Shown: one piece after another, positions 9,426-27,760 of the stretch
How the letters are laid out: every line of letters begins with the position of its first letter
How positions within the stretch are numbered: the first letter of the stretch is position 1
Source: Proteus vulgaris
GTDB lineage: Bacteria; Pseudomonadota; Gammaproteobacteria; Enterobacterales; Enterobacteriaceae
Assembly: GCA_901472505.1 (NCBI GenBank)
Contig: LR590468.1
Coordinates: 2,889,501-2,953,500 of the forward strand
Direction of reading: 5' to 3'
Length of the DNA: 64,000 nucleotides
The notes under the pieces: generated by a model
Told to the model about the DNA's origin: nothing
Databases searched by the model: none
Seen by the model: only the letters and a program-made list of their open reading frames with translations
Program-made: the position numbers and the translations under genes

Positions 9426-9439
9426 ATTGAGTATTTATT

Positions 9440-9967: not shown

Positions 9968-10239
9968 AAAGTGAGATAACCTCTTTTATTCTATATTCGT
10001 TATACATCAAGATGTTGCATTATTGGCTACATTTATTCTCACTAATCACATACTTTGTATACTACTAGTGATTCATTTAACGCTTGCCTAGCTATACCTC
10101 GAAATATTTAGATTATATTTGTCTGTGTTTGAACAATTACTAGTGAAAAATAAGCTTCATGTTTTCATGATAGAAAACTAAAAAATGTATTTTGACGAAA
10201 ATAGCAGGGTAATTCTGTCGAATTTGTGTGGTTTAGTTG

Positions 10240-10548: not shown

Positions 10549-10751
10549 AAATTTTGCTGTGAAAGGGCGTATACCAATGACTAAATTGCGAAACGCCCAA
10601 TAATACCCCACATAGTGGCGTCCTGCCACTGCTTCCTGAGTTTAACCTATTGTCATTTGGTCTTTTTATCGACACATGGTGTGATTAAGTACAATAATTA
10701 TACATTCAGGTAAGTTATTACTTTCTTAATGAGGTCATTTTAGGTAATTAA

Positions 10752-11534
10752 TTAAACTTTGGATAAAAAACGACGAATAGCGTTAATAACCGTGTCAGGT
10801 TTTTCTGAATGTACCCAGTGCCCAGTATTGGCTACGACAAAAGCGCTAGCAAGCGGAAATTGATGTGCAATATCATGACGATATTCATCTAAGATGTAAG
10901 GTGATAAGCCACCACGAATAAATAACACAGGATAATGCCAAGCAGGAACGTTTTGCCAACCAATAATATCTGAATAGGCTTTTTTGATTGCAGGTAAATT
11001 AAATAACCATTCACCGTTTTTGAAGGATTTAAGTAAAAATTGAATAACCCCTTCTTCCTTAATAAAAGGGCGCATAATTTCTGCGGCATCTTGGCGTCGT
11101 GTGACTTTAGCTTCAGTGACGGCTTCTAGCGCTGCAAAAATCTTATCGTGGCGACGAACATTGTAAGCTACTGGCGACATATCAATGACTACAATGCGAG
11201 CAATTCGCTCAGGTGCTAATGCGGTCATTGCCATTGCAATTTTTCCACCCATGGAGTGGCCGATAATAATAGCTTTTGAGATCTGTAAACTATCAAGCAA
11301 TGTAAGTACATCTTGTGCCATATCTTGATAATTCATACTTTCACTATGAGGTGAATGCCCATGATTACGTACATCAATCTGTATCACGGTGTTGTCTTGA
11401 CGCAGATTACGTCCTATTGCGCCTAAGTTATTTAAGTCGCCAAAAAGACCATGGATCAAAACAATAGGTAAATCAGATGCAGGAACTGTTTCTGGTTGAT
11501 GTAATTGATAATTTAATAATGTGTTGAGTTTCAT
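10752..11534 (-). CDS. ybfF: alpha/beta-hydrolase esterase YbfF
   Basis: A 260-aa alpha/beta-hydrolase. It carries the oxyanion HGLFGDLNNLG segment, the nucleophile elbow GHSMGG and the late histidine in NTGHWVHSEKP. It follows E. coli YbfF (254 aa), an esterase acting on acyl thioesters and esters. The start is at ATG 11534 (MKLNTLLNYQ), matching the family; the in-frame ATG 15 codons upstream is not supported. It is divergent from seqA, as in E. coli. Confidence 0.93.
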   Translation of the reverse strand: MKLNTLLNYQLHQPETVPASDLPIVLIHGLFGDLNNLGAIGRNLRQDNTVIQIDVRNHGHSPHSESMNYQDMAQDVLTLLDSLQISKAIIIGHSMGGKIAMAMTALAPERIARIVVIDMSPVAYNVRRHDKIFAALEAVTEAKVTRRQDAAEIMRPFIKEEGVIQFLLKSFKNGEWLFNLPAIKKAYSDIIGWQNVPAWHYPVLFIRGGLSPYILDEYRHDIAHQFPLASAFVVANTGHWVHSEKPDTVINAIRRFLSKV

Positions 11535-11992
11535 GTAAATGACCAAAATAAGTGCGATTTTTTCTATGATGACATGCACTAGGTGCTAAGCCAACTTATC
11601 GTCATAATATACATCAGTAATTAAGAGTGGAAATAATTAACACAAGTAATTTATAAAAAACTATATAAATGTATTTTTATGGCTTTTTATTCCAAAGTAA
11701 CATAAAAAGTTGAAATATTGACATTACTCAAAAATAAATACTTAGAATTTTATATCATTTAATGGTTGGTGTATGTGAGAAGGCGGTATTTGACACAGGG
11801 TTTGTTTGAATAAGTTCAAAGAATAGAAGATGATACCGAGATAAACAATAGGATAAATACCAAGCTTAGCCATTGAAATGGCTGGATCTTGTATAGATCT
11901 TCTTTAAGTTATTGAAATTTTACCTATTTTGTTTTTAAAGATTATATCTTATAATCCTAACTACTTTTTTTTGAAAACAGTACTGGGTAGCA
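11535..11992. promoter_or_regulatory. ybfF/seqA intergenic region
   Basis: About 460 AT-rich bases between divergent ybfF and seqA. A TATAAT-like -10 is visible at 11950-11955, about 40 bases before the seqA ATG, without a clear -35. A hydrophobic 43-codon minus-strand frame occurs at 11742-11873 but has no ribosome binding site (see findings). Confidence 0.5.
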
Positions 11993-12544
11993 ATGAAAAA
12001 GATAGAAATTGATGACGAACTTTACCGCTATATTGCTAGCGAAACTAGACATATCGGTGAAAGCGCTTCAGATATTTTAAGGCGTCTACTGAAGCTTGAT
12101 GCCAAACAGCCCGTACAGCCAGTCGTTGTCACTGAGTCAGTACAAGCACCTGTTATTAAACAGGACGCTGAACCTAAATCGATTACACCAGCAAAAAATC
12201 CGGTCCGTGAAATGCGAGAACTATTGTTATCTGACAGTTATGCTGAAAAAACAAAATCAGTTGATCGCTTTTTACAGATCCTTTCTACGTTATATAGCTT
12301 AGATAGCGCTACTTTTACTCAATCAGCTGAAACAGTACATGGACGAACACGCATCTATTTTGCTGGTGATGAACAAACATTACTCGATAGCGGACGTCAT
12401 ACAAAACCGCGCCATATTCCAGGTACGCCATTTTGGGTTATTACTAACTCGAATACAGAGCGTAAAAGAACAATGGTACAAAGCATCATGCAGGATATGC
12501 AATTTCCTGCGAATGAGATTGATAAGGTGTGTGGAACTATCTAA
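11993..12544 (+). CDS. seqA: negative modulator of replication initiation SeqA
   Basis: A 183-aa protein that binds hemimethylated GATC sites, sequesters oriC after initiation and organises newly replicated DNA. The N-terminal oligomerisation domain (MKKIEIDDELYRYIASETRH) is conserved. A linker of about 60 residues leads to the C-terminal GATC-binding domain, including GRHTKPRHIPGTPFWVITNS. Length fits E. coli SeqA (181 aa). It is followed after about 75 bases by pgm, with which it is usually cotranscribed. Confidence 0.97.
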   Translation: MKKIEIDDELYRYIASETRHIGESASDILRRLLKLDAKQPVQPVVVTESVQAPVIKQDAEPKSITPAKNPVREMRELLLSDSYAEKTKSVDRFLQILSTLYSLDSATFTQSAETVHGRTRIYFAGDEQTLLDSGRHTKPRHIPGTPFWVITNSNTERKRTMVQSIMQDMQFPANEIDKVCGTI

Positions 12545-12618
12545 CCACTATTGTTAATTGATGCATTGCAAAGGCTTTTGTTTAAAGCGTGATTGTGATG
12601 TCAAATAGGAGAAGATTT

Positions 12619-14259
12619 GTGGCAATTCATCCAAGAGCAGGGCAGCATACTCGTCAAAGTGATCTGATTAATGTGGCACAATTAACGTCGCAATATTATT
12701 CACTTAAACCACAAGCTAGCATTAATGCTCATCGTGTGAAGTTCGGTACATCTGGCCATCGCGGAAGTGCAAATCGCCATAGTTTCAATGAAGCCCATAT
12801 TTTGGCAATTGCACAGGCTATTGCTGAAGTCCGTGCAAAAAATGGAGTAACAGGGCCATGTTATGTGGGTAAAGATACCCATGGACTATCAGAGCCTGCA
12901 TTTATTTCTGTTTTAGAAGTACTTGCTGCCAATAAAGTGAAAGTGATTATTCAAGAAAATAATGGCTATACACCAACACCGGCAGTCTCTTTTTCTATTT
13001 TGACATACAACGACGCACATCAAGATATTGCTGATGGTATCGTGATCACTCCATCCCATAATCCACCAGAAGATGGTGGTATTAAATATAATCCATCAAA
13101 TGGCGGACCGGCTGACACCGATTTAACTTCTGTTATTGAAAAACGTGCGAATGAACTGCTCGAAAATAACTTAATAGGGATCAAACGTCTTTCTTATGAT
13201 GAAGCGCTGGCAAGTGGTTATATTGAAGCTCAAGACTTAATTATGCCTTATGTCAAAGCGTTAGGTGACGTTGTTGATATGGAAGTAATTAAGAAAGCAG
13301 GCCTAAAATTAGGTGTTGATCCATTAGGTGGTTCCGGTATCGAATATTGGAAGCGCATTGGTGAGTATTACGATCTTGATCTTGAATTGGTCAACGATCA
13401 AGTCGATCAAACATTCCGTTTTATGACACTCGATCATGATGGTGTTATTCGTATGGACTGTTCATCACCATGGGCAATGGAAGGTTTATTACAACTGCGT
13501 GATAAATTTGATTTAGCCTTTGCTAATGATCCTGATTATGACCGCCATGGTATTGTGACACCGTCTGGTTTAATGAATCCTAACCACTATTTAGCAGCTG
13601 CAATTAACTATCTTTTCCGTCATCGCCCACAATGGGTTAATGATGTAAAAGTAGGTAAAACTCTGGTTTCAAGTGCGATGATTGACCGAGTTGTGGCTGA
13701 CTTAGGACGCGAGCTGGTTGAAGTTCCTGTTGGTTTTAAATGGTTTGTACAAGGTTTATTTAGCGGTGAATTTGGCTTTGGTGGTGAAGAAAGCGCAGGT
13801 GCTTCTTTCTTGCGTTTTAACGGTAAACCATGGTCAACTGATAAAGACGGTATCATCTTATGTTTGTTAGCTGCTGAAATGAAAGCAGTGACAGGCAAAG
13901 ATCCACAAGAGCATTACAATGAACTAGCACAGCGTTTTGGCTCCCCAAGCTATAACCGTATTCAAGCATCAGCAACCCATGAACAAAAAGCACTGTTGTC
14001 ACGTTTATCGCCAGAAATGGTAACTGCAAGCACGTTAGCGGGCGACCCAATTACTGCTCGTTTAACACATGCTTCAGGTAATGGTGCTTCTATTGGTGGT
14101 TTAAAAGTGATGACAGATTACGGCTGGTTTGCAGCTCGTCCATCAGGCACAGAGGAAGCGTATAAAATTTACTGCGAAAGCTTCCGTGGCCCTGAGCATC
14201 GTGAGTTAATTGAAAAAGAAGCCATTGAAATAGTAAATAATGTCTTTGCTAACAAATAA
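12619..14259 (+). CDS. pgm: phosphoglucomutase
   Basis: Interconverts glucose-1-phosphate and glucose-6-phosphate. The start is placed at GTG 12619, preceded by AGGAG, which gives a protein of 546 aa, exactly the E. coli Pgm length, beginning MAIHPRAGQ; an in-frame upstream extension to 12589 is unlike the family. The phosphoserine is Ser146 in [12 protein letters not shown]. The metal loop DPDYDRHG, the sugar-binding [11 protein letters not shown] and the C-terminal phosphate-binding [10 protein letters not shown] are all present. It sits downstream of seqA and has its own terminator. Confidence 0.97.
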
Positions 14260-14285
14260 GTTAGTGTAATAAGCTATTTATATAG

Positions 14286-14320
14286 AATACACTCTACCAA
14301 AAGGTAGAGTGTATTTTTTT
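14286..14320 (+). terminator. intrinsic terminator after pgm
   Basis: A 13-bp stem (AATACACTCTACC / GGTAGAGTGTATT) with an AAAA loop is followed by a T run, about 27 bases after the pgm stop. Confidence 0.93.
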
Positions 14321-14400
14321 AATCATTACATATTTTTAGATCACAGCATTGATATCCATCATTGAGGTTGATTTAGAATTAAAAATAGAGTGGATAATCA

Positions 14401-14883
14401 ATGCAAAATAATTTTGTTTTACGCAGTGTACGTTACATGTTGGATCTAAGTGATGCACATGTTGTTGAAATCATGAAACTAGCTGATTACACCGTCACGA
14501 AAGAATTAGTCAATAGTTGGCTGAAAAAAGACGATGAACCTGAATTTGTCGAGTGTGACGATAATGCGATGGGACATTTTTTAAATGGCTTAATTTTTTA
14601 TCGTCGTGGAAAAGATGAAAACTTCCCAGCACCTGAAGTTGAAAAGCGTATAACTAATAATATTATCTTAAAAAAATTACGTGTCGCTTTTGAGCTAAAA
14701 GATGTGGATATTCTAAAGATTTATGAGCTTGCGGATTTCCGTGTTTCTAAGCCAGAGTTAAGTGCTGTATTTCGTAAACCAGGACATAAAAACTACCGTA
14801 ATTGTGGCGATCAACTTGTAAGATACTTCCTGAAAGGATTAACCGAAACCCTGCGTGGTAAAGGTAAAGCAGTGAAGAAATAA
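14401..14883 (+). CDS. yehS: DUF1456 family protein, YehS-like
   Basis: A 160-aa cytoplasmic protein made of two similar halves (about 4-75 and 80-152), each with an LRxVRYxL/LKKLRVAF-type helix, the DUF1456 architecture. It follows E. coli YehS (156 aa), including NGLIFYRRGKDE and HKNYRNCGDQLVRYFLKGL. Function is unknown. In E. coli yehS lies beside the yehI-yehQ cluster; here a version of that cluster starts about 2 kb downstream on the other strand, so the physical link is partly kept. Single gene with its own terminator. Confidence 0.85.
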   Translation: MQNNFVLRSVRYMLDLSDAHVVEIMKLADYTVTKELVNSWLKKDDEPEFVECDDNAMGHFLNGLIFYRRGKDENFPAPEVEKRITNNIILKKLRVAFELKDVDILKIYELADFRVSKPELSAVFRKPGHKNYRNCGDQLVRYFLKGLTETLRGKGKAVKK

Positions 14884-14925
14884 GTTCAGGGTACTTTAAG
14901 TTATAAAATTATCTATTTACTGATG

Positions 14926-14966
14926 ACACCCCAAAAATTGGTTTTCAATATTGGGGTGTTTTTTTA
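14926..14966 (+). terminator. intrinsic terminator after the yehS-like gene
   Basis: ACACCCCAA / TTGGGGTGT with a 16-base loop is followed by seven T residues. Confidence 0.88.
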
Positions 14967-15360
14967 TGGTATTATCTTGATTTCCCTGCATAAATATTTC
15001 ATTAATCACTGCTAAATATATTATTCAGTCGTAGATAATTTAGCAGTAGCTCTATGTTATTAATACTACAGTCCGCATTCTTGAATATCCAACCTCTCTT
15101 TCTTTATTTGATTTTTTTCTTTTTTGATAATTTATTCTCAAAATTATTTACTACAACTTTTATCAAGTAAAAATACCGATCTCATTTTGTTAATAGTTGT
15201 GTAATTTATGTTTCAACTTTGTTTCCATAATGAAATTTAATTACATATCAAGAAAAATAAAGGTGATTTTTCGCACGAATTGAGTGGTCTGATCAGTAGT
15301 AAAATTTCATCAAATGAGGTAAAATTTCAACATCAATTAATTGCTATGCAGGAGAACACT
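14967..15360. promoter_or_regulatory. upstream region of ybfA
   Basis: About 390 AT-rich bases between the preceding terminator and the ybfA start. No credible gene is seen. An in-frame extension of ybfA to 15280 exists but lacks family similarity. The ribosome binding site AGGAG is at about 15350-15354. Confidence 0.5.
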
Positions 15361-15567
15361 ATGCCAGCTTATAACGAATATACAAAAACACATGTATTGG
15401 CCCGTCGTACTGGTGCTATTGCGCTAGGTGTTGTGGCATTTCCTGTTATGATTTTCCATCCTAAACGTGCACAATTTTATAGCTATATACACCGTGTATG
15501 GTCTAAAACAAGTGATAAACCTGTTTGGTTGGCAAAATCAGAAGTGGCGTTAAATAGCCACAAATAA
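15361..15567 (+). CDS. ybfA: small membrane-associated protein YbfA (DUF2517)
   Basis: A 68-aa protein with one hydrophobic segment (TGAIALGVVAFPVMIFHP) followed by the conserved RAQFYSYIHRVWSKTSDKPVW, which is nearly identical to E. coli YbfA. The ATG at 15361 is preceded by AGGAG at good spacing and gives the family's usual length; a longer frame from 15280 is rejected. Function unknown. Followed by an intrinsic terminator. Confidence 0.9.
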   Translation: MPAYNEYTKTHVLARRTGAIALGVVAFPVMIFHPKRAQFYSYIHRVWSKTSDKPVWLAKSEVALNSHK

Positions 15568-15580
15568 CAGAACATCAAGG

Positions 15581-15608
15581 TAACGCCTAGTAAGTAGGCG
15601 TTATTTTT
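15581..15608 (+). terminator. intrinsic terminator after ybfA
   Basis: TAACGCCTA / TAGGCGTTA hairpin with a 5-base loop and a trailing T tract, 14 bases after the ybfA stop. Confidence 0.88.
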
Positions 15609-15790
15609 ATCACTTCTTTAAAGCATTTTTCCAATGCAATCTGCTTGTTTTTCCTCACTTTCAAATAACCTTCAAGTTTTACGTTACAATAAAGAATAAT
15701 GATTTATTTAAACGGATACCTTTAACCTATTGCTATTTATTCGATTGTTATATAAATAGTGGCATTCGTGATAACAGGGAAAAGAATGAG

Positions 15791-16534
15791 ATGAAAAATA
15801 CCGCTCTAGAATTAATCATCAATGAAAAGCTCAGTATTGAGAATTTCCAGGACTACGCACCTAATGGCCTTCAAGTAGAAGGGCGTCCACATATTCAAAA
15901 AATAGTTACGGGTGTGACTGCCAGCCAAGCATTACTTGATGAAGCAGTCGCATTAAATGCGGATGCAATTTTAGTTCATCATGGTTATTTTTGGAAAAAT
16001 GAGCCTGTTGTCATTCGCTCAATGAAACGCAATCGTTTGAAGACATTACTTTGTCATGACATTAATCTTTTTGGTTATCACTTACCGTTAGATGCGCACC
16101 CAATTTTAGGTAACAATGCTCAATTGGCATTAAAAATGGGCGTTAAAGTTGAAGGTGAAATATTACCTTTAGTGCCGAAAGGTGTGTTTGATTTGCCTTT
16201 AGCGCCTCTTGAATTAAAAGCACGTTTAGAAAAAGCATTGCAACGTAATGTATTGCATTGTGGTGATAATGCACCTGAAGCGATCCGCAGTATTGCTTGG
16301 TGTACTGGAGGGGGACAAGGCTTTATTCAAGATGCAGCAGATGCTGGAGTGGATGCTTTTGTGACGGGGGAGGTCTCAGAACAGACTATTCATATTGCAA
16401 GAGAAATGGGCGTTCATTTTTTTGCTGCAGGACACCATGCAACGGAGCGTTATGGTATTAAAGCATTAGGTGAATGGCTAGCTCAAACACATAACTTGGA
16501 TGTAACGTTTATTGATATTGATAATCCAGCATAA
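15791..16534 (+). CDS. ybgI: NIF3-family dinuclear metal protein YbgI
   Basis: A 247-aa protein of the NIF3/DUF34 family, equal in length to E. coli YbgI, a toroidal hexamer with a two-metal site. Metal-binding motifs are visible as VHHGYFWK (near residue 63) and GHHATERYG near the C-terminus, with GEVSEQT between them. Biochemical role is not settled; it is often discussed as a metabolite-damage or metal-related hydrolase. Terminated by a hairpin shared with the converging minus-strand operon. Confidence 0.95.
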   Translation: MKNTALELIINEKLSIENFQDYAPNGLQVEGRPHIQKIVTGVTASQALLDEAVALNADAILVHHGYFWKNEPVVIRSMKRNRLKTLLCHDINLFGYHLPLDAHPILGNNAQLALKMGVKVEGEILPLVPKGVFDLPLAPLELKARLEKALQRNVLHCGDNAPEAIRSIAWCTGGGQGFIQDAADAGVDAFVTGEVSEQTIHIAREMGVHFFAAGHHATERYGIKALGEWLAQTHNLDVTFIDIDNPA

Positions 16535-16554
16535 GCCCACTTATTCTTATCTTA

Positions 16555-16590
16555 AAAGCTACCTCTCTTTAATTAGAGAGGTAGCTTTTT
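16555..16590. terminator. terminator between ybgI and the converging yeh-like operon
   Basis: AAAGCTACCTCTCT / AGAGAGGTAGCTTT is a 14-bp hairpin with an 8-base loop and a T tract on the plus strand. Because A residues flank the left arm, it can also act on the minus-strand operon that ends at 16603. Confidence 0.88.
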
Positions 16591-16602
16591 CGCTAATACC
16601 AA

Positions 16603-16977
16603 TTACTCGTTAAGTTGAATAGGTAACGGACTTTGCAATTGTTGCAGATTATCGCATAGCCAAATTAACTGTAATAATGCCCGTGGATCACGGGAAGTTA
16701 ATGCCAAATAATAAGCTAATTGCTCAGCAATTAATGTCATTCCTAAATCATCTGCGGTGTGTTTGCTTATTTCTAATTGCTCTTTTTGCATTTCAGAGAG
16801 TAATTCCCGTCCAGTACAGGCTTGAGCTTCTAATACGGACAAAATAGGACGACAGAATTTTTGTGTTAACGTCGGTTCACTGTGATGCATTACTGTTTGT
16901 TGCTTACGTTTAGCCATATATTCTTGGATACGGCTAATAAAGCCTGATTGTTTTTTCTTACGTGGAAAATTGGTCAA
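16603..16977 (-). CDS. small hypothetical protein, last gene of the yeh-like operon
   Basis: A 124-aa protein I do not recognise. It has a very basic N-terminus (MTNFPRKKKQ...MAKRKQQ) and a helical, leucine-rich C-terminal half (LIAEQLAYYLALTSRDPRALLQLIWLCDNL). No signal peptide or membrane segment is apparent. Its start overlaps the end of the SWIM-domain gene by 20 bases, so it is almost certainly translated from the same message. That makes it a candidate partner of the AAA+/VWA/SWIM proteins encoded upstream. Confidence 0.7.
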   Translation of the reverse strand: MTNFPRKKKQSGFISRIQEYMAKRKQQTVMHHSEPTLTQKFCRPILSVLEAQACTGRELLSEMQKEQLEISKHTADDLGMTLIAEQLAYYLALTSRDPRALLQLIWLCDNLQQLQSPLPIQLNE

Positions 16978-18676
16978 AATCGAGATAAAACAGTTCGATG
17001 CCTCTCTCTGTTCTGATCCAAATAGTCGTTGGCAACAAGTCTATATTGAGATCACGTCGAACGGGTTGCACAGTGACTGCGACAATTTCTAACTCTTTTT
17101 TGGTAAGAAAGCGCAATTCTTCTAGATTATTTTGTGTTGTTCCTTCCCAATAAAGGCGCAAGAAAGCTGAATTTTTATGATTATCTGATACTTCCCAAAT
17201 CACACATTGCTCTACTTCATACCAAATTAACGGTTTGTAGTGTTTGATATGCAGAACCAGAGGGGAAAGAAATCCTTCTGTTTGATGGGCAAAATAATCG
17301 GGTAAATCTTGCCAGTTATTGATGCCTAGCTCAGTTTGCAAATTGTTGTAGTCCGTAATATCAAGAAAATCCGCGTGATTTTGAGCAAAGCTCTCGCCAA
17401 TAGTGGCTAGTTTTCCTTCATCAGAAATACGGGGTTCTTGTAATAAAAAAGGACGACGCATTAATTTATCCGCAGTTTGTTTCCATAATGACAAACTGTT
17501 CCAAACACCATAACGATTAAATAAGGTATCAAGCTGATTAGGACGTGCTTGTGTCGCTTGTAATAGCTGTTTTTCTTCGCTATCCCAAAAGGTAAAGGTT
17601 GCACCTAATGCGTCACTTTGTGCTGTCCACCAATTTGCCCCAACCGGAATAAGAGAAAGGCTAGTTTTTTTATTATCATATTGACGGCGAAGTTGCCCTC
17701 GTAACGTTTTTAACTGCTCTGGTGTCGCATGAGATAATTGGAATAGATAGGCAGAAACATGGGCTAATAAACGCAAGACATGGCTTTCATCCATGGTGAA
17801 ATGTCTTTCTGCCAACAGTTTGACTTGAGTGCTTAATGTTCGTAAATAAGACGCTAAACGAGGTAAACCTTCCGCTCGAGCGGACATATTTAATAAGTGT
17901 AACTGTGTGGCACTGCTTAAGCTGATATGTGATAGCCCTTGGCGTAATAAATCATCAATAAATTGTTCAATGGTATTAATTAGAGCTATTTCTTCATCAT
18001 TCAGGGGATGTTTAGAAGATTGCACCGTAATTAAATCTTCAGGCCACGTCCAAGGTTTCGTGTGTTGCTCAAATAATTTAGCCACGATAGCGAGATGAAA
18101 GGCTTTTTTCTGTGAGTCAGAAAAAGGCGATAACATGCCATCATATCCGCCACCTTGTAAGAAAATAACAGGCTCATCAACATCAGGAAGTTGGATTTTT
18201 AATTGAGTCCCTGTGTCTTCTAGGCTGAATGTTGAGTTTTCCCACTGTCCGATTAATTTAATCGCTGTTCGACAGGCAGGTTTACCCGCTTTTTTGATTA
18301 ATGCTTCTGGATCAAGAGCAAATAATGTGGGTAACAGAGGAACGATTGCAACAGGCTCAGTAATGGCTTCTGATGATATTTCACTACTATTATCATTATT
18401 TGAATTATCAGTATTATTATTAGCTTGGAGCCATAAAATAGCAGCTAAAATATGTTTACAGCAACCTGATGCAGAACAATCGCAACTGGCTTGTTGAATA
18501 CCCGCTTCGTGTAAAACAACATTTTGCCCATCACTACTGAACTGCCCTGTATTGCTATCAGTGAGAGATACTTTTTCGTTATCAAGGTCTTTTTTGGCGC
18601 GTCTTAATAATCCTGCATTTGCAAAAACTGTGAGCGCATCTTCATCGTAATGAAAGTAAACTGTTTGCCAACTCAT
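16958..18676 (-). CDS. yehQ: SWIM zinc-finger protein, YehQ-like
   Basis: A 572-aa protein with an N-terminal SWIM zinc finger: Cys65-x-Cys67-x5-Cys73-x-His75 in CDCSASGCCKH. The remainder is a long alpha-rich region of unknown fold. SWIM domains bind DNA or proteins in other systems. The start ATG overlaps the stop of the upstream VWA gene (ATGA), and its own stop overlaps the next gene, so translation is coupled. Position in an AAA+/VWA operon corresponds to E. coli yehQ. Molecular role unknown. Confidence 0.8.
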   Translation of the reverse strand: MSWQTVYFHYDEDALTVFANAGLLRRAKKDLDNEKVSLTDSNTGQFSSDGQNVVLHEAGIQQASCDCSASGCCKHILAAILWLQANNNTDNSNNDNSSEISSEAITEPVAIVPLLPTLFALDPEALIKKAGKPACRTAIKLIGQWENSTFSLEDTGTQLKIQLPDVDEPVIFLQGGGYDGMLSPFSDSQKKAFHLAIVAKLFEQHTKPWTWPEDLITVQSSKHPLNDEEIALINTIEQFIDDLLRQGLSHISLSSATQLHLLNMSARAEGLPRLASYLRTLSTQVKLLAERHFTMDESHVLRLLAHVSAYLFQLSHATPEQLKTLRGQLRRQYDNKKTSLSLIPVGANWWTAQSDALGATFTFWDSEEKQLLQATQARPNQLDTLFNRYGVWNSLSLWKQTADKLMRRPFLLQEPRISDEGKLATIGESFAQNHADFLDITDYNNLQTELGINNWQDLPDYFAHQTEGFLSPLVLHIKHYKPLIWYEVEQCVIWEVSDNHKNSAFLRLYWEGTTQNNLEELRFLTKKELEIVAVTVQPVRRDLNIDLLPTTIWIRTERGIELFYLDFDQFST

Positions 18677-19827
18677 TGCATTACCTCAGCTAGCCATTGC
18701 GCGAAATGTTCTGGTGTTAAGGCGGCAACTTGCATACCTCTGTCTGCGAGTTTTTGTGCAATCGCAGAGTCATAAACAGGTTGAGCTTCATCATCAAGTG
18801 CCGCGAGACCTAATAATTTAACTTGTTGGCTATTAAGGCGTTGTGTGCAATCTAATAAGCGGTTTAATGAGCCACCTTCTTCAAAGTCACTGATAAGAGA
18901 AATAACGGTGCGTTTGGGATTTTTGACTAAACTTTCACAGTATTGAATTGCACCTGCGATATCAGTACCGCCTCCCAATTGTACCGTCATTAAAACTTCA
19001 ACGGGATCGTCTGCCAAATGCGATAAATCGACAACTTGAGTATCAAAAACGACTAAAGAGACATTAACGGCAGGTAATGAGGCTAAAATACTGGCACAAA
19101 CAGCTGCATACATAATGGAGCTAGACATTGACGCGCTTTGGTCAACGCAGAGAATAACATCCCATGGAAAATGCTGTTGCATCCGTGAGTTAAAGTAAGG
19201 TGTTTCAATCACTAAACGGCGGTTTTGAGTATCGTAATGTTTTAAGTTTGCAGCAATGGTCGCACGCCAATCAAAGTTGCGACTATTAGGCACTAAAGAG
19301 CGTCTAAAACGATTACGGCGACCTGTTAATGATTGGCGAAAGTTATTGCGAATTTGACGTAAAATATCTTCAACTACTTTGCGAATAATGGTTTTAACGG
19401 CATCTCGCGTTTCTTCACTCATGCGCCCACGTAAGCTTAATAATGTTTTGGCTAACGCTTTCGTGGGCTCCATTGCTTTTAACGTATTGGGATCTTTAAG
19501 AAAACTACTGATTTGATAACGTTCAATAGCTTGTGATTGCATACGTTCAAAGGTGCTATTAGGGAATAGCTTACGTGCTTGATTGAGCCAGTTTACCGCG
19601 GTAAGTTGTGATGCATCGAGTGAACCATGGCGTCCTCGCTCTTGGCGCAAGCCTCGCCGCTGGTATTCTCGGCGATAAAGAAAATCGAGCGTACGTTCAA
19701 CTTTAAGATCTTCGGCATTAAATGTGGCTTGCCCAAGAGCGTCATCAGCATATTGGCCCAAAATCAGGCGCCAGCGTTTTGCTTGTCGTATTTTATCTTC
19801 AGGCATATCGTCATTATGCTGACTCAT
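18673..19827 (-). CDS. yehP: VWA-domain protein, YehP-like
   Basis: A 384-aa protein whose C-terminal half is a von Willebrand A domain with the metal-ion-dependent adhesion motif DQSASMS (Asp229 from the chosen start), a TDIAGAI threonine/aspartate loop and SDFEEGG. The N-terminal half is basic and helical. Start choice: ATG 19827 (MSQHNDD) has GGAG 9-10 bases upstream; an alternative ATG at 19833 is too close to it, and a start at 19863 would give 396 aa. The chosen length is close to E. coli YehP (378 aa). It overlaps the upstream gene by 14 bases and the downstream one by 4. VWA proteins typically act as substrate adaptors for MoxR-type AAA+ ATPases. Confidence 0.85.
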   Translation of the reverse strand: MSQHNDDMPEDKIRQAKRWRLILGQYADDALGQATFNAEDLKVERTLDFLYRREYQRRGLRQERGRHGSLDASQLTAVNWLNQARKLFPNSTFERMQSQAIERYQISSFLKDPNTLKAMEPTKALAKTLLSLRGRMSEETRDAVKTIIRKVVEDILRQIRNNFRQSLTGRRNRFRRSLVPNSRNFDWRATIAANLKHYDTQNRRLVIETPYFNSRMQQHFPWDVILCVDQSASMSSSIMYAAVCASILASLPAVNVSLVVFDTQVVDLSHLADDPVEVLMTVQLGGGTDIAGAIQYCESLVKNPKRTVISLISDFEEGGSLNRLLDCTQRLNSQQVKLLGLAALDDEAQPVYDSAIAQKLADRGMQVAALTPEHFAQWLAEVMQ

Positions 19828-22396
19828 GGGCATTGTCTCCGTTCTCTGCTTTCTTAGTATCAAACCAAGAAATGATGCCTTGTTCCATTATACGTTGTTG
19901 TAGTTTTTGATTAAGCTTAGTCGCTTCAATCATTTGTTTAGCACTAAATTCTGACTGCCATAATGATAATGCTTGCGTATCTAAACCAATATCGCTGGCG
20001 ATATATTGTGCAAGCTCTGCGTTTTGCTTGGGATTAAGTTGGCTAAATGCAAAACGCAGATCAGGCAAGATCTGAATAAAACGCTCTTCATCCCATTGCT
20101 GTAACAAGGTATTTAAGTGATCAACCAATAAAGGTAAGCGGATCACAAGCTCTGGTGCTGTTCGCATAATTCCCACAAAATAACCAATGGCTTGTTCAGG
20201 AGAACTTCCCGTACTAAAAGTGGCATTCAATGCGCTTGTCAGTGTGGTTTCGTCAATATATGAGCCTAAATAACGTAATGCATCAACAGCACCTTTTAAT
20301 AAAGGAACAGTATCTAGTTGTCCATCAAGGCGATTGAGTTGCTGATAAAGGTCGCTTTTATAATCATGTTGATTATTGAGAGATGGCATAAATTCAATTA
20401 ATTCACGTAAAGAGAGTAGGGCTTGTAAATTACTTTCTTGTTGTTGCTCATCACTTTGAGCGAGTTGTTCTAAACAAAAGAATGCTTGAGGGATAACTTG
20501 ATGCAGGCGATTTTCAAGCGTCAGCTCATCGGTAATATCAAGGTATTGGCGACCTCGCCATAAATGAATTAATTTGTGGCCACATTGGGTTAATGACCCA
20601 AGGCGAAAATCTTGTTGGATATAGTTATCTAACAACTTAAATAATGATGGAATACGCTGGTGGAGCCCAATTAATGCTGCTTGTGTTAATAAAGTGACAG
20701 CACTTTGGCTTGAACGACTTTGGCCTTGTTCTTCAAGCTGTTTTTCCATAGATAACAACTTAGTTAAGGCGATGGCTTCAAGTTGAGAGCCTTTCTCTGA
20801 TAATGAAATCAATTCACCTTCGACATTGGGTGTCCAAGCGTATTGCCACTCTTCAAACAACAAATCCAATTGATGGCCAGAAAGAAAGTCAGGGCCATTG
20901 ATTCGATGTGCAAAGTGAATTTCTAAGAAAGCCAATAAATGTAAAAAACGACTTCTTAAGCGATGTTGAGGGTTGCGGTAAACATCACATTTCGTGGTTT
21001 TTACTAATGTATCATCAAGTTTAAAACGAAAACTTTTGGCACGTTCATAGGTTTCATTTACCAACGGTGGTGTTGCCGTACCTAATGGAATTTTGCCTAA
21101 TAGATAGCCTGAAAAACAGGTTTTAATTTCTGTCCATAACTCGCTTTGGCTATCATCTAAACTGCCCTTAATAAAGGCACTTTGTAAACCATCAAGCAAA
21201 TCATAGCGACCCATACCAGCGTGATCTCTAAGTAAAGCAAGGCGTAAACTTTGCTCGGCAGCCAGTTTTACGGCTAAATAGCTAGGTGGATTATCAAATT
21301 GTTTTTCTCTAATAGATTGAGCCACTGAGCTTAAAAATGCGATCCCCATTTTATTGCGATAAATTTGGGTTGGCTGTTTAGCAAGACCATTATTTTCTAA
21401 TTTATCATGATGTTGTTGCATTAAACTTTGCCAAACTTGTTGATAAAAAGCTGGAGATGGCATACCAGAAGCATAGCCATTAAGTGCATCTAATCTGTCA
21501 AAACTGTAGCGAATAAGCCAAGCTTGTTCTTTTTCGGCCATTCTTTGCATTTTAGTGAATTGCTTTTGCTCTGTGCTAGAAATAGCGAAAGATTGAGATT
21601 GTGAATTGGTTAGACCTTCAATTAATGCAAGGGTATGAAATCCGCCTGTTACAATTAAAATCTTGGCATTGGGCTCTTGTTGTTTGATGGTTTGAATATG
21701 AGTGAGCATATGTGCTTCACGTTGCGAAGAACCTTCTGATCCAAGTACTTCTGGCTCATAATCAAGACGCGCAAGTGCACACCAAATAAAGGTATCATTA
21801 AAGAAGGATTGCCAATCAGCTAAAGCTTCAATGTTGCGTAGCTCAAAAAGATGCTCCCAAACATCATCATGGTCACGGCAATGACATTTTTTGGCTAATT
21901 GTGCAATAAACTGACTATGGGCTAAATAACGTTCTTTTTGTAAGCTACGACTTTGTGAATCACTATACTCTTCGTTATTAACTTGAGCCGCCCATGGCAA
22001 ATCGATAAAGCGTGTTTTTGCATTGATGCGTAAACCACCTCGCAATGCTTGCCATTCAGGTGAATATTCACAAAATGGGAAATAAGCAGAATGCAGTGAT
22101 TTTTCTCGCTCTTCTTGGTTACCATCATTATGCAAATATTCTGCTTGCCCCATAATAGCCACTGGAGGCAGGGTATCTTTATCAGTCAGACTTGGAATAA
22201 GAGAATTAAAGGTATCAGGGCCTTCAATTAATATATAGTCAGGCTTTACCGAATCAATTAGTGATAAAACAGCATAAGCACAAGCAGGGCTGTGATGGCG
22301 TACAGGGGCAAAATAGAGATGTTGTTGCTGTAACGACGTCCATTTCAGTCGTGCTTGGTCAATTCTTTCTGGTAAAGGTATTGAAGGTAGCGTCAC
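19814..22396 (-). CDS. yehM: DUF5682-like protein, YehM-like
   Basis: An 860-aa cytoplasmic protein. The N-terminal quarter has the DUF5682-type signatures PVRHHSPAC (31-39), YILIEGPDT (54-62) and IVTGGFHTLAL (248-258), which recall the TraB/erythromycin-esterase-like fold with conserved histidines. The rest is alpha-helical and leucine-rich. It lies between the AAA+ and VWA genes in an operon matching E. coli yehL-yehM-yehP, and is about 100 residues longer than I recall for E. coli YehM. If the histidines are catalytic it could be the effector of the system; that is inference. Confidence 0.75.
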   Translation of the reverse strand: MTLPSIPLPERIDQARLKWTSLQQQHLYFAPVRHHSPACAYAVLSLIDSVKPDYILIEGPDTFNSLIPSLTDKDTLPPVAIMGQAEYLHNDGNQEEREKSLHSAYFPFCEYSPEWQALRGGLRINAKTRFIDLPWAAQVNNEEYSDSQSRSLQKERYLAHSQFIAQLAKKCHCRDHDDVWEHLFELRNIEALADWQSFFNDTFIWCALARLDYEPEVLGSEGSSQREAHMLTHIQTIKQQEPNAKILIVTGGFHTLALIEGLTNSQSQSFAISSTEQKQFTKMQRMAEKEQAWLIRYSFDRLDALNGYASGMPSPAFYQQVWQSLMQQHHDKLENNGLAKQPTQIYRNKMGIAFLSSVAQSIREKQFDNPPSYLAVKLAAEQSLRLALLRDHAGMGRYDLLDGLQSAFIKGSLDDSQSELWTEIKTCFSGYLLGKIPLGTATPPLVNETYERAKSFRFKLDDTLVKTTKCDVYRNPQHRLRSRFLHLLAFLEIHFAHRINGPDFLSGHQLDLLFEEWQYAWTPNVEGELISLSEKGSQLEAIALTKLLSMEKQLEEQGQSRSSQSAVTLLTQAALIGLHQRIPSLFKLLDNYIQQDFRLGSLTQCGHKLIHLWRGRQYLDITDELTLENRLHQVIPQAFFCLEQLAQSDEQQQESNLQALLSLRELIEFMPSLNNQHDYKSDLYQQLNRLDGQLDTVPLLKGAVDALRYLGSYIDETTLTSALNATFSTGSSPEQAIGYFVGIMRTAPELVIRLPLLVDHLNTLLQQWDEERFIQILPDLRFAFSQLNPKQNAELAQYIASDIGLDTQALSLWQSEFSAKQMIEATKLNQKLQQRIMEQGIISWFDTKKAENGDNAHESA

Positions 22397-22420
22397 CGTG
22401 TCGATCCCTTTTCTGGGTGA

Positions 22421-22448
22421 AAAGGCAGAGTCAGTGAACTCTGCCTTT
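22421..22448. terminator. stem-loop between yehL-like and yehM-like genes
   Basis: AAAGGCAGAGT / ACTCTGCCTTT is a perfect 11-bp stem with a 6-base loop in the 99-base gap between two operon genes. There is no T tract on the minus (coding) strand, so it is more likely an RNA processing or stability element than a full terminator. Confidence 0.55.
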
Positions 22449-22495
22449 AATTGATAAATAACGTATTTTATTGTGTAGCAATGAGTTTCAGCGTG

Positions 22496-23605
22496 TTATT
22501 GCCAAAACTCTTTTGATGCATCAAAGAACGCTTTCCACTCTTTGCTGTTTCTTGCGCGTTCTCTAGCGACATTGTCCATGTAATAACGAATACGTTTAAT
22601 ATCATCAGCATTGTCTTTTAATACAACACCGATTAATTGGCGCGCAATCGCACCTGCATTCATTACGCCATCACCTAAATAATGTGCTTCTAAGGCACAA
22701 GCATAAGCAATGTTCACCGCTTCTGCGGTTGACATAACCGCATCAGGGGTTTTGATATTACCGCCATCTTGTGTATTACCTGAACGTAGTTCTTGGAATG
22801 TGGTTACCAGTAATTCCACTACATCAACAGGTATCGTCACTTCATTAGCTAAAGAGCCTAATTCATTTTCTAGCTGTGATTGAATTAAGCTGATTTCAAA
22901 TGCTGGATCACGAATGGGTTTTACCGTTTCGAAATTAAAACGACGTTTTAATGCGGCAGACATCTCGTGGACACCACGATCACGTAAGTTTGCTGTACCG
23001 ATAAGGTTAAATCCAGGTTTTGCACTAATACGCGCACCATCCCCCATTTCGGGGATCATTAACTGTTTTTCTGACATCAAAGAAACCAGTACGTCCTGAA
23101 TTTCAGGAGGACAACGGGTTATCTCTTCAAAGCGAACAATTTTACCTTGTAACATACCTTGATAAAGCGGCGATCCCACTAAAGCGCGCTCTGTTGGGCC
23201 TTCTGCTAATAACAACGCATAGTTCCATGAGTACTTGATGTGATCTTCTGTAGTGCCCGCAGTGCCTTGAATAGTTAGCCCTGAATCACCACTGATGGCA
23301 GCGGCAAAAAGCTCTGAGAGCATCGATTTTGCTGTACCTGGCTCACCAACTAGCATTAAACCTTGCTTGCCTAATAATGTGACAATTGCGCGATCAACCA
23401 AGGCATCGTCGCCGAAAAACTTAGGTGTGACGCCTAATGCATCATCACCTAAAATAAATTGTCGTACAGCACGAGGAGAGCGAAGCCATCCTTGTGGTTT
23501 AGGATTATTAACATCTGCTTTTGTTAAGCGCGCTAACTCTTGAGCAAATCGAACCTCAGCACTTTCCCTGATTGCTTGTTGATCTGCGGGTGCTTTTTTA
23601 GCCAT
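22496..23605 (-). CDS. yehL: MoxR-type AAA+ ATPase, YehL-like
   Basis: A 369-aa AAA+ ATPase. Walker A is GEPGTAKS (87-94), Walker B is KIVRFEEI (155-162), sensor 1 is the Asn in GTANLRDRG, and an arginine-rich segment ALKRRFNFE follows; this is the MoxR/AAA_5 layout. Length is close to E. coli YehL (362 aa). MoxR ATPases work as chaperones or remodelers with VWA partners, and the VWA gene is two positions downstream. It begins 25 bases after the end of the DUF4132 gene, in one operon. Confidence 0.88.
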   Translation of the reverse strand: MAKKAPADQQAIRESAEVRFAQELARLTKADVNNPKPQGWLRSPRAVRQFILGDDALGVTPKFFGDDALVDRAIVTLLGKQGLMLVGEPGTAKSMLSELFAAAISGDSGLTIQGTAGTTEDHIKYSWNYALLLAEGPTERALVGSPLYQGMLQGKIVRFEEITRCPPEIQDVLVSLMSEKQLMIPEMGDGARISAKPGFNLIGTANLRDRGVHEMSAALKRRFNFETVKPIRDPAFEISLIQSQLENELGSLANEVTIPVDVVELLVTTFQELRSGNTQDGGNIKTPDAVMSTAEAVNIAYACALEAHYLGDGVMNAGAIARQLIGVVLKDNADDIKRIRYYMDNVARERARNSKEWKAFFDASKEFWQ

Positions 23606-23630
23606 ATTCTTTCCTAGTTATCCCTAATTA

Positions 23631-26600
23631 TTACCAAGGTGTTTTCTTTTCCCATTCAGGATCGAATCCTGCACAAGCTTCAGCGATTTTTAGATAATCA
23701 GCATAGCTTTCTGCTAATAAAATTGGCGGAACTTCTTTTAGCTCAATATTATTGCGATCCCAGTAATCTTGCTGATTTTTCTCAAAACTTAAATCAAATA
23801 AGACCGCAGGAATGTTTTCTTCAGGCACATAGCTACCACTGAAACCGATATTGACGTAGTAGTTTAAACTAGAGAAGAATTTGTAATAGTGGGAGAACGA
23901 GCCACCATCTTCAGCAGGGCCACGTTGATACCCCATTTTGGTTAAAATACCGCGTAAAGTGAAGGTGTCTGTGAGCCAGCCTTTTCGGTCTTCAACCTCT
24001 GTTTGCGTTAGATCTAATTCAGGGATCTTATGTTCCATTTGTGAGAACAAAAACTTCACTTTGTAATCTTTAAAGTGAGCAATCCATGCTTTGCGTTCAT
24101 CTTCATTAACTAATGCCGCGTGGGCTAATTGAATAAATGAATCGTTTTGTAAACTGACTTCGTCATCTTCAAGGTTAAGTAATGCACCATCATCAGAAGG
24201 GCGGAACGTATTGATCACTTCGCCATCCTTAACTTCCTGCCAAACTAATTGTTCAATTAATTTATGCATAATTGGGTGAGCTAAAATGTATTCTTGCCAA
24301 TCTGTACTTAACCATTGACGTTGAGCACACATCGCTTCATATAAACGCACACTTTGTAGCTCAATAACTTGTTTAAGTTCTTTTTTACTCGAAGTGAAGA
24401 GCTTTTTCGCTTCTTTAATCAGCTCAGCATCATCATTTTTACGCGCAGCAGGTAACGCCTTAACTTCTTTGCCTTCTGGATTAAACAGAACAAGTTTTTG
24501 TTTTGCATCCATTTTTGCAGTGAAAATACGTTCACCATATTCCAGCACTAATGTTCCAGTATCATCAAAACCTGCGGTTGGAATAGTTCTATCAGCTAGC
24601 TCATCTGCACTCCAGCCATTACGCTCCGCAATTTGCGTAACTAAATTACGGGCTTTTTCCTGAACAGATGCAGTGCGATAACGACGAGATAACGAAAGAA
24701 GAAGCTGGATGATAATCGGATCATTGCTTGAAGCAACGGCATCAATCATCGCTTCAATTTGAGCACGACGCTGATAATGATCGCGCATATAGTTGCGTAA
24801 TACAGATACCGCAACATGGCCTTCAATGCCACAGATAAGCGCAAGCATACCTTTATCACTGATTGCTGAGCCTAAATAACGACGTAATACCTCGTTTTTA
24901 ATCTCTTCAACCACTTGTTCTAATGTGAAGTTTTCATATTTAGCATAATATTCAGGATAACGTTTAGCCCAGTTTTGATAATTACTTAAACGCCCCGGCG
25001 CTTCACGTTGGGCTTCAATCATCGCTTCTTCTAGTGATGGCCCTTTAATATCCTGAGCAACAAAAGTATGCAGAATAAAGCTTGAAAGTTTATGTTGACT
25101 ATCCGTAGAAAGCAGGCTGATATAACGTTGTAATAGTGCGTTACCTCCAGGCATTTTTAACTTTACTGCCAGAATAATCCACCAGCGAATAATTGCGGGA
25201 TCAACCGCTTTCTTGTTTTCCCATGTTAATGCGGGAATTGCATCGAAATTAAACCAAGCAAGGCTTGCTGGTGCTTTGGCTTTAAGGCCTTTTTCAGCTT
25301 CTGCTAATAATGTTTTTGGTGATAAATAGCTTGAAATATCTTCACCTAGTTGCTCTAACGCAGTAAGTAAAGAGGCTCGTACTACTTCGCGTTTTTCTTT
25401 TTTCAATAAGGCATTAAGCGCAGGTAAGGAATCCGGATTATTTAAGCGAGCTAGCCATTCAATGGCTGTAACACGAATTTCTTGTTTACTAGAGGTTAAT
25501 CCTTCTTGTGCACTTAAATGAATATTAGGCAGTGTTTCTAATAACTTTTGTGCAGAAACGCGGTGTGTTTTATTTTCACCTAATGCCAATTCCATGATGC
25601 GTGGAACAAATTGCGCAGGAATTGTTGGGAAACGACTTAATACTTCAATACCTTGTGATGTTTCAAATTGGCGATAGCGGTGTTCACTTTGATTTGGCAT
25701 TAAGTTTAACGCTTCTGCAATGTAATCAGTATGTTGAGAGAAGAAAGGCCAAACTTGTTCTGGTTTACGAAAACAGCGTAAGCTATCTTCATAAGATTCT
25801 AAACATAATGCAGCAGTAAGGCGGGTTGCATTTTTAAAGTTGCAACGTTGTAGCACATCTTCAATATGACGTAATTCAATATTACTAAATAAGCGCTCAG
25901 GAATTTCACCATTAAAATAGTAAGAGGAAAAGTGATCGGCATGTTGGCGGTTATTGGTGATCACGCGTACTGCATGGAAAAACGTGTATTCAGGTAAATT
26001 AGGAATACGGTTTTTGTATTTGATTATTTGGATCTCATTTGATTGAATTGTGCCCTGTCCGCTATTGAGTTTATCCACTAATGCGCGACACTGTTTTTCA
26101 TCAATTTTAGATAAATCTTTATAATGGCGTTGTGCCCAATTATAAGAGTGTTTAGCCGTTTTATTTTCTTCAATTTCACGTTCTGCATTTTCCTTTGCTT
26201 TAACTAACATTTCATTGAAGTTATTGACCATAATATCACGGGCACTATCGGGTAACGGCGTATCTTCTAATGGTGTAAAGTCAGGCACTTCGATGGCTTC
26301 AACAGTATTTGCATTATCAGCAACACTAAAACGTTGTAGGGCACTTTCAATGCTCTTGATGACCGTTTTTGAGGTTTCATGTTTTAAGGCTTCTTCAAGT
26401 ACACCGCGATTTTCACCTTGGCGAGCAAATAAGTCAGCAGCTTGTGCACGTTGTTTCGGTGTACCCTTCATTAAAACATGAGTTAAATTTTCTTTTACGA
26501 TCTCTGCTGGTAAAGTATTTAAAATAGGTTCCGCGGTTTTTTTTACTGTTTTTAAACTGCTGGTGGCCAGTAAAACAATAATATCTGCAAAAGTGTCACG

Positions 26601-27359
26601 TAATACTGTATTTTTATTTAAGTAATTAATTAGCTCGACTAAACCATTTGCTGATAGTTTTTCAATGAGTGCTGTTCTAATAAATTCTTGATGTGAAAGC
26701 AGATAATCTTTTAAATCACGAAGTTCATAAATACGCTTAAGATTAGAAGCATAGTATTCAGAGATATCTTTTCTATCAAATACGGCGAATAATGCATTTT
26801 CACCCGCAATATTGGCCTCAGCTTCGACCATATTGGCGATAAATTCCATACTCCAATGTTTACGATGTTCTAAATTAAGATTACGTGCATTATCATAAGT
26901 GGTGTAAAACGCATCAACTAACAGGTAAATAACCCAAGTCGGTACTTCAGTTGTTGTCACTTTGATATTGATATCTTGGCATGCAGCGGCAATGACTTTT
27001 GCATAACGAGCGACTTGTTCTAAGGAAAAGCTTTCGCCAACTTTAGAGTAAAGTTTATGGCGGGCATTAAGACCTTGGGTGATAACTTTATTATATTTTC
27101 CTGTATCAACATTACTGGCATACCACCATTCTAATGTTCCTGCACGATGAAAATAAACGGCTGCTTTTGCTGCATCCAGTTTATTTAATTCAAAAAGAAT
27201 TTCTGGGTTTTTGCCTGTAAGTACATAATCTAATGCACGTTTAGGTAAACTTTCATCAAATATAGCAAGCAGTACAAGAGATTCTTGAAGATATTTTTCA
27301 GTAATATCGACGTCTTTTTTCCCAAAAAGAGGGAGGAGGTCTAAGATTTTTTTTATCAC
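23631..27359 (-). CDS. yehI: DUF4132 protein with HEAT-like repeats, YehI-like
   Basis: A 1242-aa soluble protein and first gene of the operon. The C-terminal 250 residues are the DUF4132 domain (AQRQWLSTDWQEYILAHP, GYQRGPAEDGGSF, YYVNIGFSGSYVPEENIP). The middle (about 580-680) has HEAT-like repeats (SSKQEIRVTAIEWLARLNNP, REVVRASLLTALEQLG), and the N-terminal half is mainly helical. It corresponds to E. coli YehI (about 1210 aa), historically linked to molR. The start is GTG 27359-27357, with AAGGA 7 bases upstream. No catalytic motif is recognisable; a scaffold role is possible. Confidence 0.8.
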   Translation of the reverse strand: MIKKILDLLPLFGKKDVDITEKYLQESLVLLAIFDESLPKRALDYVLTGKNPEILFELNKLDAAKAAVYFHRAGTLEWWYASNVDTGKYNKVITQGLNARHKLYSKVGESFSLEQVARYAKVIAAACQDINIKVTTTEVPTWVIYLLVDAFYTTYDNARNLNLEHRKHWSMEFIANMVEAEANIAGENALFAVFDRKDISEYYASNLKRIYELRDLKDYLLSHQEFIRTALIEKLSANGLVELINYLNKNTVLRDTFADIIVLLATSSLKTVKKTAEPILNTLPAEIVKENLTHVLMKGTPKQRAQAADLFARQGENRGVLEEALKHETSKTVIKSIESALQRFSVADNANTVEAIEVPDFTPLEDTPLPDSARDIMVNNFNEMLVKAKENAEREIEENKTAKHSYNWAQRHYKDLSKIDEKQCRALVDKLNSGQGTIQSNEIQIIKYKNRIPNLPEYTFFHAVRVITNNRQHADHFSSYYFNGEIPERLFSNIELRHIEDVLQRCNFKNATRLTAALCLESYEDSLRCFRKPEQVWPFFSQHTDYIAEALNLMPNQSEHRYRQFETSQGIEVLSRFPTIPAQFVPRIMELALGENKTHRVSAQKLLETLPNIHLSAQEGLTSSKQEIRVTAIEWLARLNNPDSLPALNALLKKEKREVVRASLLTALEQLGEDISSYLSPKTLLAEAEKGLKAKAPASLAWFNFDAIPALTWENKKAVDPAIIRWWIILAVKLKMPGGNALLQRYISLLSTDSQHKLSSFILHTFVAQDIKGPSLEEAMIEAQREAPGRLSNYQNWAKRYPEYYAKYENFTLEQVVEEIKNEVLRRYLGSAISDKGMLALICGIEGHVAVSVLRNYMRDHYQRRAQIEAMIDAVASSNDPIIIQLLLSLSRRYRTASVQEKARNLVTQIAERNGWSADELADRTIPTAGFDDTGTLVLEYGERIFTAKMDAKQKLVLFNPEGKEVKALPAARKNDDAELIKEAKKLFTSSKKELKQVIELQSVRLYEAMCAQRQWLSTDWQEYILAHPIMHKLIEQLVWQEVKDGEVINTFRPSDDGALLNLEDDEVSLQNDSFIQLAHAALVNEDERKAWIAHFKDYKVKFLFSQMEHKIPELDLTQTEVEDRKGWLTDTFTLRGILTKMGYQRGPAEDGGSFSHYYKFFSSLNYYVNIGFSGSYVPEENIPAVLFDLSFEKNQQDYWDRNNIELKEVPPILLAESYADYLKIAEACAGFDPEWEKKTPW

Positions 27360-27760
27360 GCCAGTTCCTTAAGCTATGTATGGATAAACAGTTTTTTTTA
27401 CCATGAAATAGCAAAACGAACAATTTGATTATCACTATTGAAAATAAAACCTAGGCATCCCATTTGTTAAATTTATAGATATAAACACTGAAAAAGCCGA
27501 TCTAACTTTATTAATATTCAATTCTTCATTATATAAAACGCTATATCAGGAAAAAGTGCTGAAAATGAAGAGGTGATAATAAAGGTGTTTTTTTGTGGGA
27601 TTTAAAAAGATTAAGAATTGTCTGTTTAATAAAATAAGCGTTAACACTTAGCTAAATTGATTAAAAAATAACAGTCAGAAGTAAAGGTAAATAAGTGTTA
27701 ACAATCCCGTATTTTTAAGGGATTTTGTTCCTTTTGATTTTATATGAATATCATAAAATA
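27360..27760. promoter_or_regulatory. upstream region of the yeh-like operon
   Basis: About 400 AT-rich bases between the DUF4132 gene and the terminator of the convergent-side exporter gene. It must hold the operon promoter. I see no clear operator or coding frame in it. Confidence 0.45.

Follow-up and report, generated by a model that had tools for sequence, protein, structure and literature searches.

The minus-strand operon found at positions 16603 to 27359 of a 64,000-nucleotide stretch of Proteus vulgaris DNA (contig LR590468.1; the whole stretch is hereafter called the window) encodes a DUF4132 protein, a MoxR AAA+ ATPase of the YehL type, a DUF5682 protein, a VWA protein and a SWIM zinc-finger protein. 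On balance, though narrowly, it is probable that this operon encodes one AAA+ machine belonging to the DNA-damage response. The role is proposed because one conserved machine sits behind three unrelated DNA-damage regulators (LexA, DdrO and PafBC), in parts of three bacterial groups; we infer the step from damage regulation to function, as well as the substrate and the activity. The host is a Proteus genome of 3.92 Mb, and the DUF5682 protein is 91% identical to its P. mirabilis counterpart.

Gene content, linkage and distribution

An earlier note, made from the sequence alone, had described six genes in one direction. The same-direction run from 27359 to 16603 stands; the count does not, as five genes are present, the last one being frame-broken. 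The 572-amino-acid open reading frame (ORF) aligns with residues 8-576, and the 124-amino-acid ORF with residues 576-696, of one P. vulgaris protein. Since both align to one intact relative, the "small basic protein" of the earlier note is the C-terminal end of the SWIM protein, split off by the frame break, and not the product of a separate gene. No credible family was found for this last ORF, and a single intact SWIM gene of 696-702 amino acids is found in 10/10 other named Proteus loci. The frame break may be either a real mutation or an assembly error. Two of the overlaps reported between genes hold (14 bases, if the VWA gene starts at ATG 19827, and 4 bases); the 20-base overlap with a sixth gene does not.

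The linkage set includes 80 named loci found through DUF5682 (the best 80 of 124 confirmed). DUF5682 and VWA genes are present in all 80, the ATPase gene in 79, the SWIM gene in 78 and the DUF4132 gene in 77; all five are found in 76. Of the remaining four loci, one begins at a contig end and the others are contigs or pieces of 4.4-11.4 kb. Most neighbours lie at most 100 bases apart (DUF4132-MoxR, 55/63; MoxR-DUF5682, 69/78; DUF5682-VWA, 75/76; VWA-SWIM, 76/77). Over 50 non-redundant loci, pairwise identities of the five proteins rise and fall together (matrix correlations of 0.89-0.97), an agreement to which shared ancestry contributes. An even sample of Pseudomonadota gave DUF5682 in 13/299 genomes and a YehL-type ATPase (E <= 1e-30) in 14/299, including the same 13. 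The genes thus travel together in the co-occurrence check that had been proposed, and the refuting outcome (genes often apart) was not found. The multi-subunit machine that had been suggested is backed by linkage, by joint presence or absence and by parallel divergence of the five proteins. The earlier note gave no target for it; the present results favour DNA damage.

The system is patchy in the family sample (one genome for nearly every genus), where it is found in 6/119 genomes, window genome included. It is nearly fixed within Proteus (19/20 genomes), and at least 80% of yehL-M-P-Q is found in 5155/5426 complete Escherichia coli genomes (95%).

Some observations were made on single loci. 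One genome (locus L228) encodes a YehL-type ATPase (E 9e-94) without any partner in the 20 kb fetched. An unverified 14-kb "bacteriophage" record (MT835988) carries MoxR, DUF5682 and VWA genes; it is probably a bacterial contig.

Regulatory sites in Enterobacterales

The idea of damage regulation came from published regulon data and from a near-LexA site 5′ of the Proteus operon. In these data, DdrO controls the WGR protein DR2173 and the DUF4132 protein DRA0166, both of which are induced by mitomycin C in an IrrE-dependent manner (PMC8533742). In addition, molR is listed as LexA-regulated (PMC4576408, PMC11039860). An E. coli plasmid record also shows a LexA-type site 5′ of its WGR-DUF4132 gene.

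The 150 bases 5′ of the lead gene and its first 10 bases were scanned in 11 enteric genera (one locus each) and scores were compared with those of shuffled sequences. The LexA matrix is an approximate one, with the molR site left out. The E. coli row is a plasmid record carrying the chromosomal region. The best scores at the lead are 21.2 (genus g57), 17.0 (E. coli), 16.5 (Pectobacterium), 14.2 (genus g43), 11.7 (Proteus) and 11.1 (Xenorhabdus); sites are graded strong in the first four and weak in Proteus and Xenorhabdus. Fisher values are 2.6e-10 for all 11 genera, 1.7e-7 without the discovery genera (E. coli and Proteus) and 1.2e-6 for 8 genera (one row per homologous site). The sites of Proteus, Pectobacterium and Xenorhabdus look homologous. 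The score of the Proteus site, AACTGTTTATCCATACATAG, was reached by 47/5000 shuffles of the 160-base region. The 16-base core of the site is unchanged in 18/18 other Proteus genomes, as is much of the surrounding DNA. The Proteus operon may be under weak LexA control.

A block like GATAATCAAATTG (27421-27433 in the window), about 60-75 bases 5′ of the lead gene, is common, with changes, to Proteus, Providencia and Pectobacterium. It is a possible regulator site.

Regulatory sites in Deinococcota and Actinomycetota

A radiation motif precedes the five-gene MoxR-VWA operon Deide_18730-18690 of Deinococcus deserti (PMC2669436). In D. taeanensis, used as a stand-in, the top radiation/desiccation response motif (RDRM, the DdrO-type site) of 29.4 kb scores 22.7 bits (rank 1 of 29,370; runner-up, 9.5) and ends 19 bases 5′ of the annotated SWIM start. 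As compared by locus tags, the D. deserti operon has MoxR third and VWA fifth (PMC2669436), as in the type II order described below. The D. taeanensis operon differs from that of the window by encoding DUF5691 instead of DUF4132 and by a further small ORF annotated between MoxR and DUF5682.

The PafBC-type promoter motif is tTGTCRgtg-8-TannnT (PMC5656591). Promicromonospora loci carry it at the operon lead in 6/6 cases (L132, L134, L139, L141, L143, L146), where 10-11 of the 12 bases match. Matches of at least 10 of 12 bases occur at only 18 of 593,782 positions of 15 actinobacterial loci. In both Nonomuraea loci the best site matches 10 of 12 bases; one of these sites sits on the called start codon.

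Each type of site was also sought at loci of the other groups. The top-scoring LexA site of a locus is at the lead in 7/28 Enterobacterales loci vs 1/74 others (Fisher, 4.1e-4), the top PafBC site in 7/16 actinobacterial loci vs 1/86 others (Fisher, 4.5e-6) and the top RDRM site in 1/101 loci outside Deinococcota. These counts overstate independence because loci within a genus are related; collapsed to genera, they give rough binomial values of 8.7e-6 and 0.009.

Several results weigh against a damage-response role. The Proteus site taken alone is unremarkable, one-mismatch matches numbering 19 in the window vs 17.95 expected. No LexA-matrix site was found at the lead in g49, g79, Providencia, g311 and g291 (150-base scan). 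Other lineages also lack LexA-, DdrO- or PafBC-type sites at the lead.

Features of the encoded proteins

The MoxR assignment made earlier is borne out. The ATPase matches AAA_5 and has Walker A (residues 87-94), Walker B, sensor 1 and arginine-finger residues, as expected of a MoxR AAA+ protein: G87, A92, K93, S94, E160, E161, N206, R221 and R222 are kept in 105/105 aligned relatives. Walker B reads F-E-E, with E-E in place of the usual D-E. The VWA partner gene is found in 80/80 loci. The metal-binding motif of its product is intact, as had been claimed: D241, S243 and S245 are kept in 105/105 relatives, D326 in 103 and T300 in 102. VWA_CoxE spans residues 176-391 of 396 and no other domain kind reaches the cut-off; therefore, no effector is fused to the VWA protein.

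The third protein had been called DUF5682-like, with conserved histidines. It matches the DUF5682 profile (PF18934) with 319.9 bits (curated cut-off, 26) and, because the E-value is 4.9e-95, is a full member of the family. The histidines are indeed nearly invariant: H34 is found in 105/106 relatives, H35 in 104/106 and H254 in 106/106, as well as E58 in 105/106. The structure model suggests, without certainty, that the N-terminal region has a TIKI/EreA/ChaN-type fold. The predicted fold may be that of the TIKI superfamily (EreC, ChaN, HopBA1), with His, Glu, Arg and His in the same order. R261 and H289 of EreC (numbering of PMC7979712) are 28 residues apart, and so are the Arg and the last His of DUF5682. 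Two differences were found. No counterpart was seen in DUF5682 for the EreC Glu located three residues before the first His (E47), the fourth residue of the 2His/2Glu set, and DUF5682 proteins add a predicted HEAT-like C-terminal arm. The labels "4-aminobutyrate aminotransferase" and "BREX-2 system phosphatase PglZ", given to DUF5682 proteins in some public records, look like errors of annotation.

The SWIM finger also proved real, although the window ORF is marginally below the Pfam cut-off (19.5 bits vs 19.6), which the intact P. vulgaris protein exceeds. The ligands C72, C74, C80 and H82 (numbering of the intact protein) are found in 80/80 proteins of more than 500 amino acids. Structure models suggest, again not with certainty, that the protein has a tandem OB fold. 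The net charge of the predicted OB region is positive in only 3/31 homologues, which counts against a basic DNA-binding surface.

The lead protein is a DUF4132 protein with HEAT repeats, as had been read from the sequence (both Pfam matches were found). A profile search gave no WGR domain in it up to E 10. An N-terminal WGR domain is found in some DUF4132 proteins of type I (see below): the E. coli match has E 6e-18, and the set contains 11 matching ORFs, including a truncated one. In the genus g90 (probably Providencia), 19/24 genomes have a DUF4132 match, two of them only partial (G149, G155). A second DUF4132 protein (872 amino acids) is encoded just 5′ of the lead gene in three Proteus loci (L078:2029-4647, L088:2021-4639, L125:2024-4642). 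The L078 protein has DUF4132 and HEAT matches; none is listed at that place in the window.

Two architectures and related systems

Architectures were compared in another set of 17 loci, to which the phylum sample contributed 13 (without the window genome) and the family sample 4. Type I (DUF4132) includes 11/17 loci; the long SWIM protein is found in 10, and the stretch of the eleventh ends before it. Type II (shorter SWIM protein and DUF5691) includes 5/17 loci. Both types together were found in 0, and one locus is cut by a contig end. Since loci have one or the other and never both, DUF4132 and DUF5691 look like alternative partners of one core. Type II is found in plasmid records of Deinococcus, Rhizobium, Methylosinus and Hymenobacter. 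Sinorhizobium and Agrobacterium records are of type I, with the genes in a different order. A complete type I operon lies on a 77-kb mobilizable plasmid of Iodobacter (pl1, 4279-17569); it adjoins a type I restriction-modification set and its SWIM protein is split in two ORFs.

The correspondence proposed with E. coli yehI-yehL-yehM-yehP-yehQ (YehL subfamily) is right for families and order but distant, the DUF5682 proteins being about 28% identical. In E. coli, unlike in the window, a WGR-DUF4132 gene precedes the set, and yehI is separated from yehL by about 1 kb. No published function was found for yehI-L-M-P-Q in a literature search from which subscription papers were mostly absent. MoxR subfamilies, including YehL, have been described (PMC3893208), and so have vWA-MoxR ternary conflict systems, which share the MoxR and vWA core with further partners (PMC7159879). 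No third component of these ternary systems is named by Pfam or NCBIfam in the window ORFs, and there is no fusion to the vWA protein. NorQ-NorD, CbbQ-CbbO and RavA-ViaA share a MoxR AAA+ protein with a VWA partner. They are not known to have DUF5682, SWIM or DUF4132/DUF5691 partners.

Proposed role and other explanations

In the proposed DNA-damage machine, the VWA protein would link the MoxR ring to a target kept on or near DNA by two further subunits, the SWIM/tandem-OB protein and the DUF4132 scaffold (WGR-bearing in other lineages). ATP hydrolysis would remodel this target or pull it apart, and the DUF5682 subunit (a putative TIKI-type hydrolase fold on a HEAT-like arm) would then cut or modify it. 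A narrower version, which we regard as improbable and offer as speculation, is that the operon clears DNA-trapped proteins: OB/SWIM and WGR-type subunits would mark single-stranded or broken DNA, MoxR-VWA would unfold the protein and the TIKI-type DUF5682 protein would cut it. If so, the system would be a bacterial functional counterpart of DNA-protein-crosslink proteolysis.

The operon could instead encode a maturation chaperone like NorQ-NorD or CbbQ-CbbO (metal insertion in, or activation of, one enzyme), the damage sites reflecting general stress control. A MoxR protein with a VWA partner whose metal-site residues are intact is the NorQD arrangement (PMC9976466), and the client could be encoded elsewhere in the genome. 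No recurring client candidate was found in the neighbourhood, however: response regulators (7) aside, no Pfam family occurs in more than 2 of the 126 flanking ORFs (E <= 1e-8; best 25 of 90 families by count). Furthermore, the core is always found with DUF5682 and, contig permitting, with the SWIM protein, neither of which NorQD and CbbQO are known to have, and control by three unrelated DNA-damage regulators is hard to account for in this way. This explanation is considered possible but rather unlikely. We judge it quite unlikely that the operon encodes a general proteostasis or stress machine (acting, for instance, in desiccation or under membrane stress) whose role is not specific to DNA: MoxR proteins are described as chaperone-like (PMC3893208), a chaperone was suggested for the D. 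deserti pair (PMC2669436) and the predicted OB region is acidic, whereas WGR domains in related operons and LexA-, DdrO- and PafBC-type sites speak for a link with DNA.

The earlier note had also hinted at defence. A MoxR-vWA type of conflict or anti-phage system, switched on when phages damage DNA, would fit the ternary systems already described (PMC7159879), the sub-threshold match of the ATPase to bpMoxR of these systems (22.8 bits; cut-off, 27), the plasmid location of some copies (one adjoining a type I restriction system) and the effectors found among TIKI-type folds. The hint was not upheld. No match was found for the operon ORFs in PADLOC 2.0.0 (E <= 0.001), and flanks of the 17 loci are not enriched: 6 PADLOC families were found in 126 flanking ORFs vs 16 in 124 ORFs of same-genome control stretches (E <= 1e-10), one of which seems to hold a Qat set. 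Near-fixation in Proteus and E. coli (counts above), a VWA protein ending with its domain and DUF5682 motifs kept in 104-106 of 106 relatives also argue against defence, which is thus unlikely.

MoxR subfamilies, LexA regulation of molR, the motif and operon of D. deserti and induction in D. radiodurans are already published. The literature search, from which most subscription papers were missing, gave no earlier account of the link between these pieces, of the correction to five genes, of the two architectures, of the fold predictions or of the PafBC sites. A gene set that is carried by nearly all complete E. coli genomes and has no assigned role thereby gains a testable one. The system may prove to be a new component of the DNA-damage response of bacteria, Deinococcus included, and concrete, model-based fold predictions are now available for DUF5682 and the SWIM protein.

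Feature coordinates and other observations

Table 1. Features of the operon in the window. Coordinates are those of the window; aa, amino acids; pLDDT, predicted local distance difference test.
Feature	Position	Strand	Evidence or remark
LexA-like site AACTGTTTATCCATACATAG, 14 bases 5′ of the lead-gene start codon, one base off CTGTN8ACAG	27374..27393	-	
Lead gene, encoding a 1242-aa DUF4132 protein with HEAT repeats	23631..27359	-	Pfam DUF4132 3.9e-32 at 963-1115; HEAT_2 1.6e-6
YehL-type MoxR AAA+ ATPase, 369 aa	22496..23605	-	Pfam AAA_5 1.8e-34
DUF5682 protein, 860 aa	19814..22396	-	Pfam DUF5682 4.9e-95; model mean pLDDT 87.3
DUF5682 residues 1-310, predicted TIKI/EreA/ChaN-type fold with conserved R33-H34-H35, E58, R226-E227, H254	21467..22396	-	
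DUF5682 residues 538-805, predicted HEAT/ARM-like helical solenoid	19982..20785	-	Structure model
VWA_CoxE protein, 396 aa as listed, metal-binding residues intact	18673..19863	-	VWA_CoxE 4.7e-49; alternative ATG 19827
SWIM zinc-finger gene, first part of the frame-broken gene, 572 aa; finger near 18434-18502	16958..18676	-	SWIM 7.1e-4
Predicted tandem OB fold region (residues 335-567 of the intact P. vulgaris protein)	approx. 16994..17695	-	Structure models
C-terminal part of the same SWIM gene, other frame, 124 aa	16603..16977	-	98% identical to residues 576-696 of the intact P. vulgaris protein

Two features were observed elsewhere in the window. The GC content of 56001-58000 is down to 22.5%, vs 33-43% in adjoining stretches. 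AAGC-rich tandem repeats are found within an ORF at 51285-51503; they perhaps encode a TolA-like Ala/Lys region, which is a guess.

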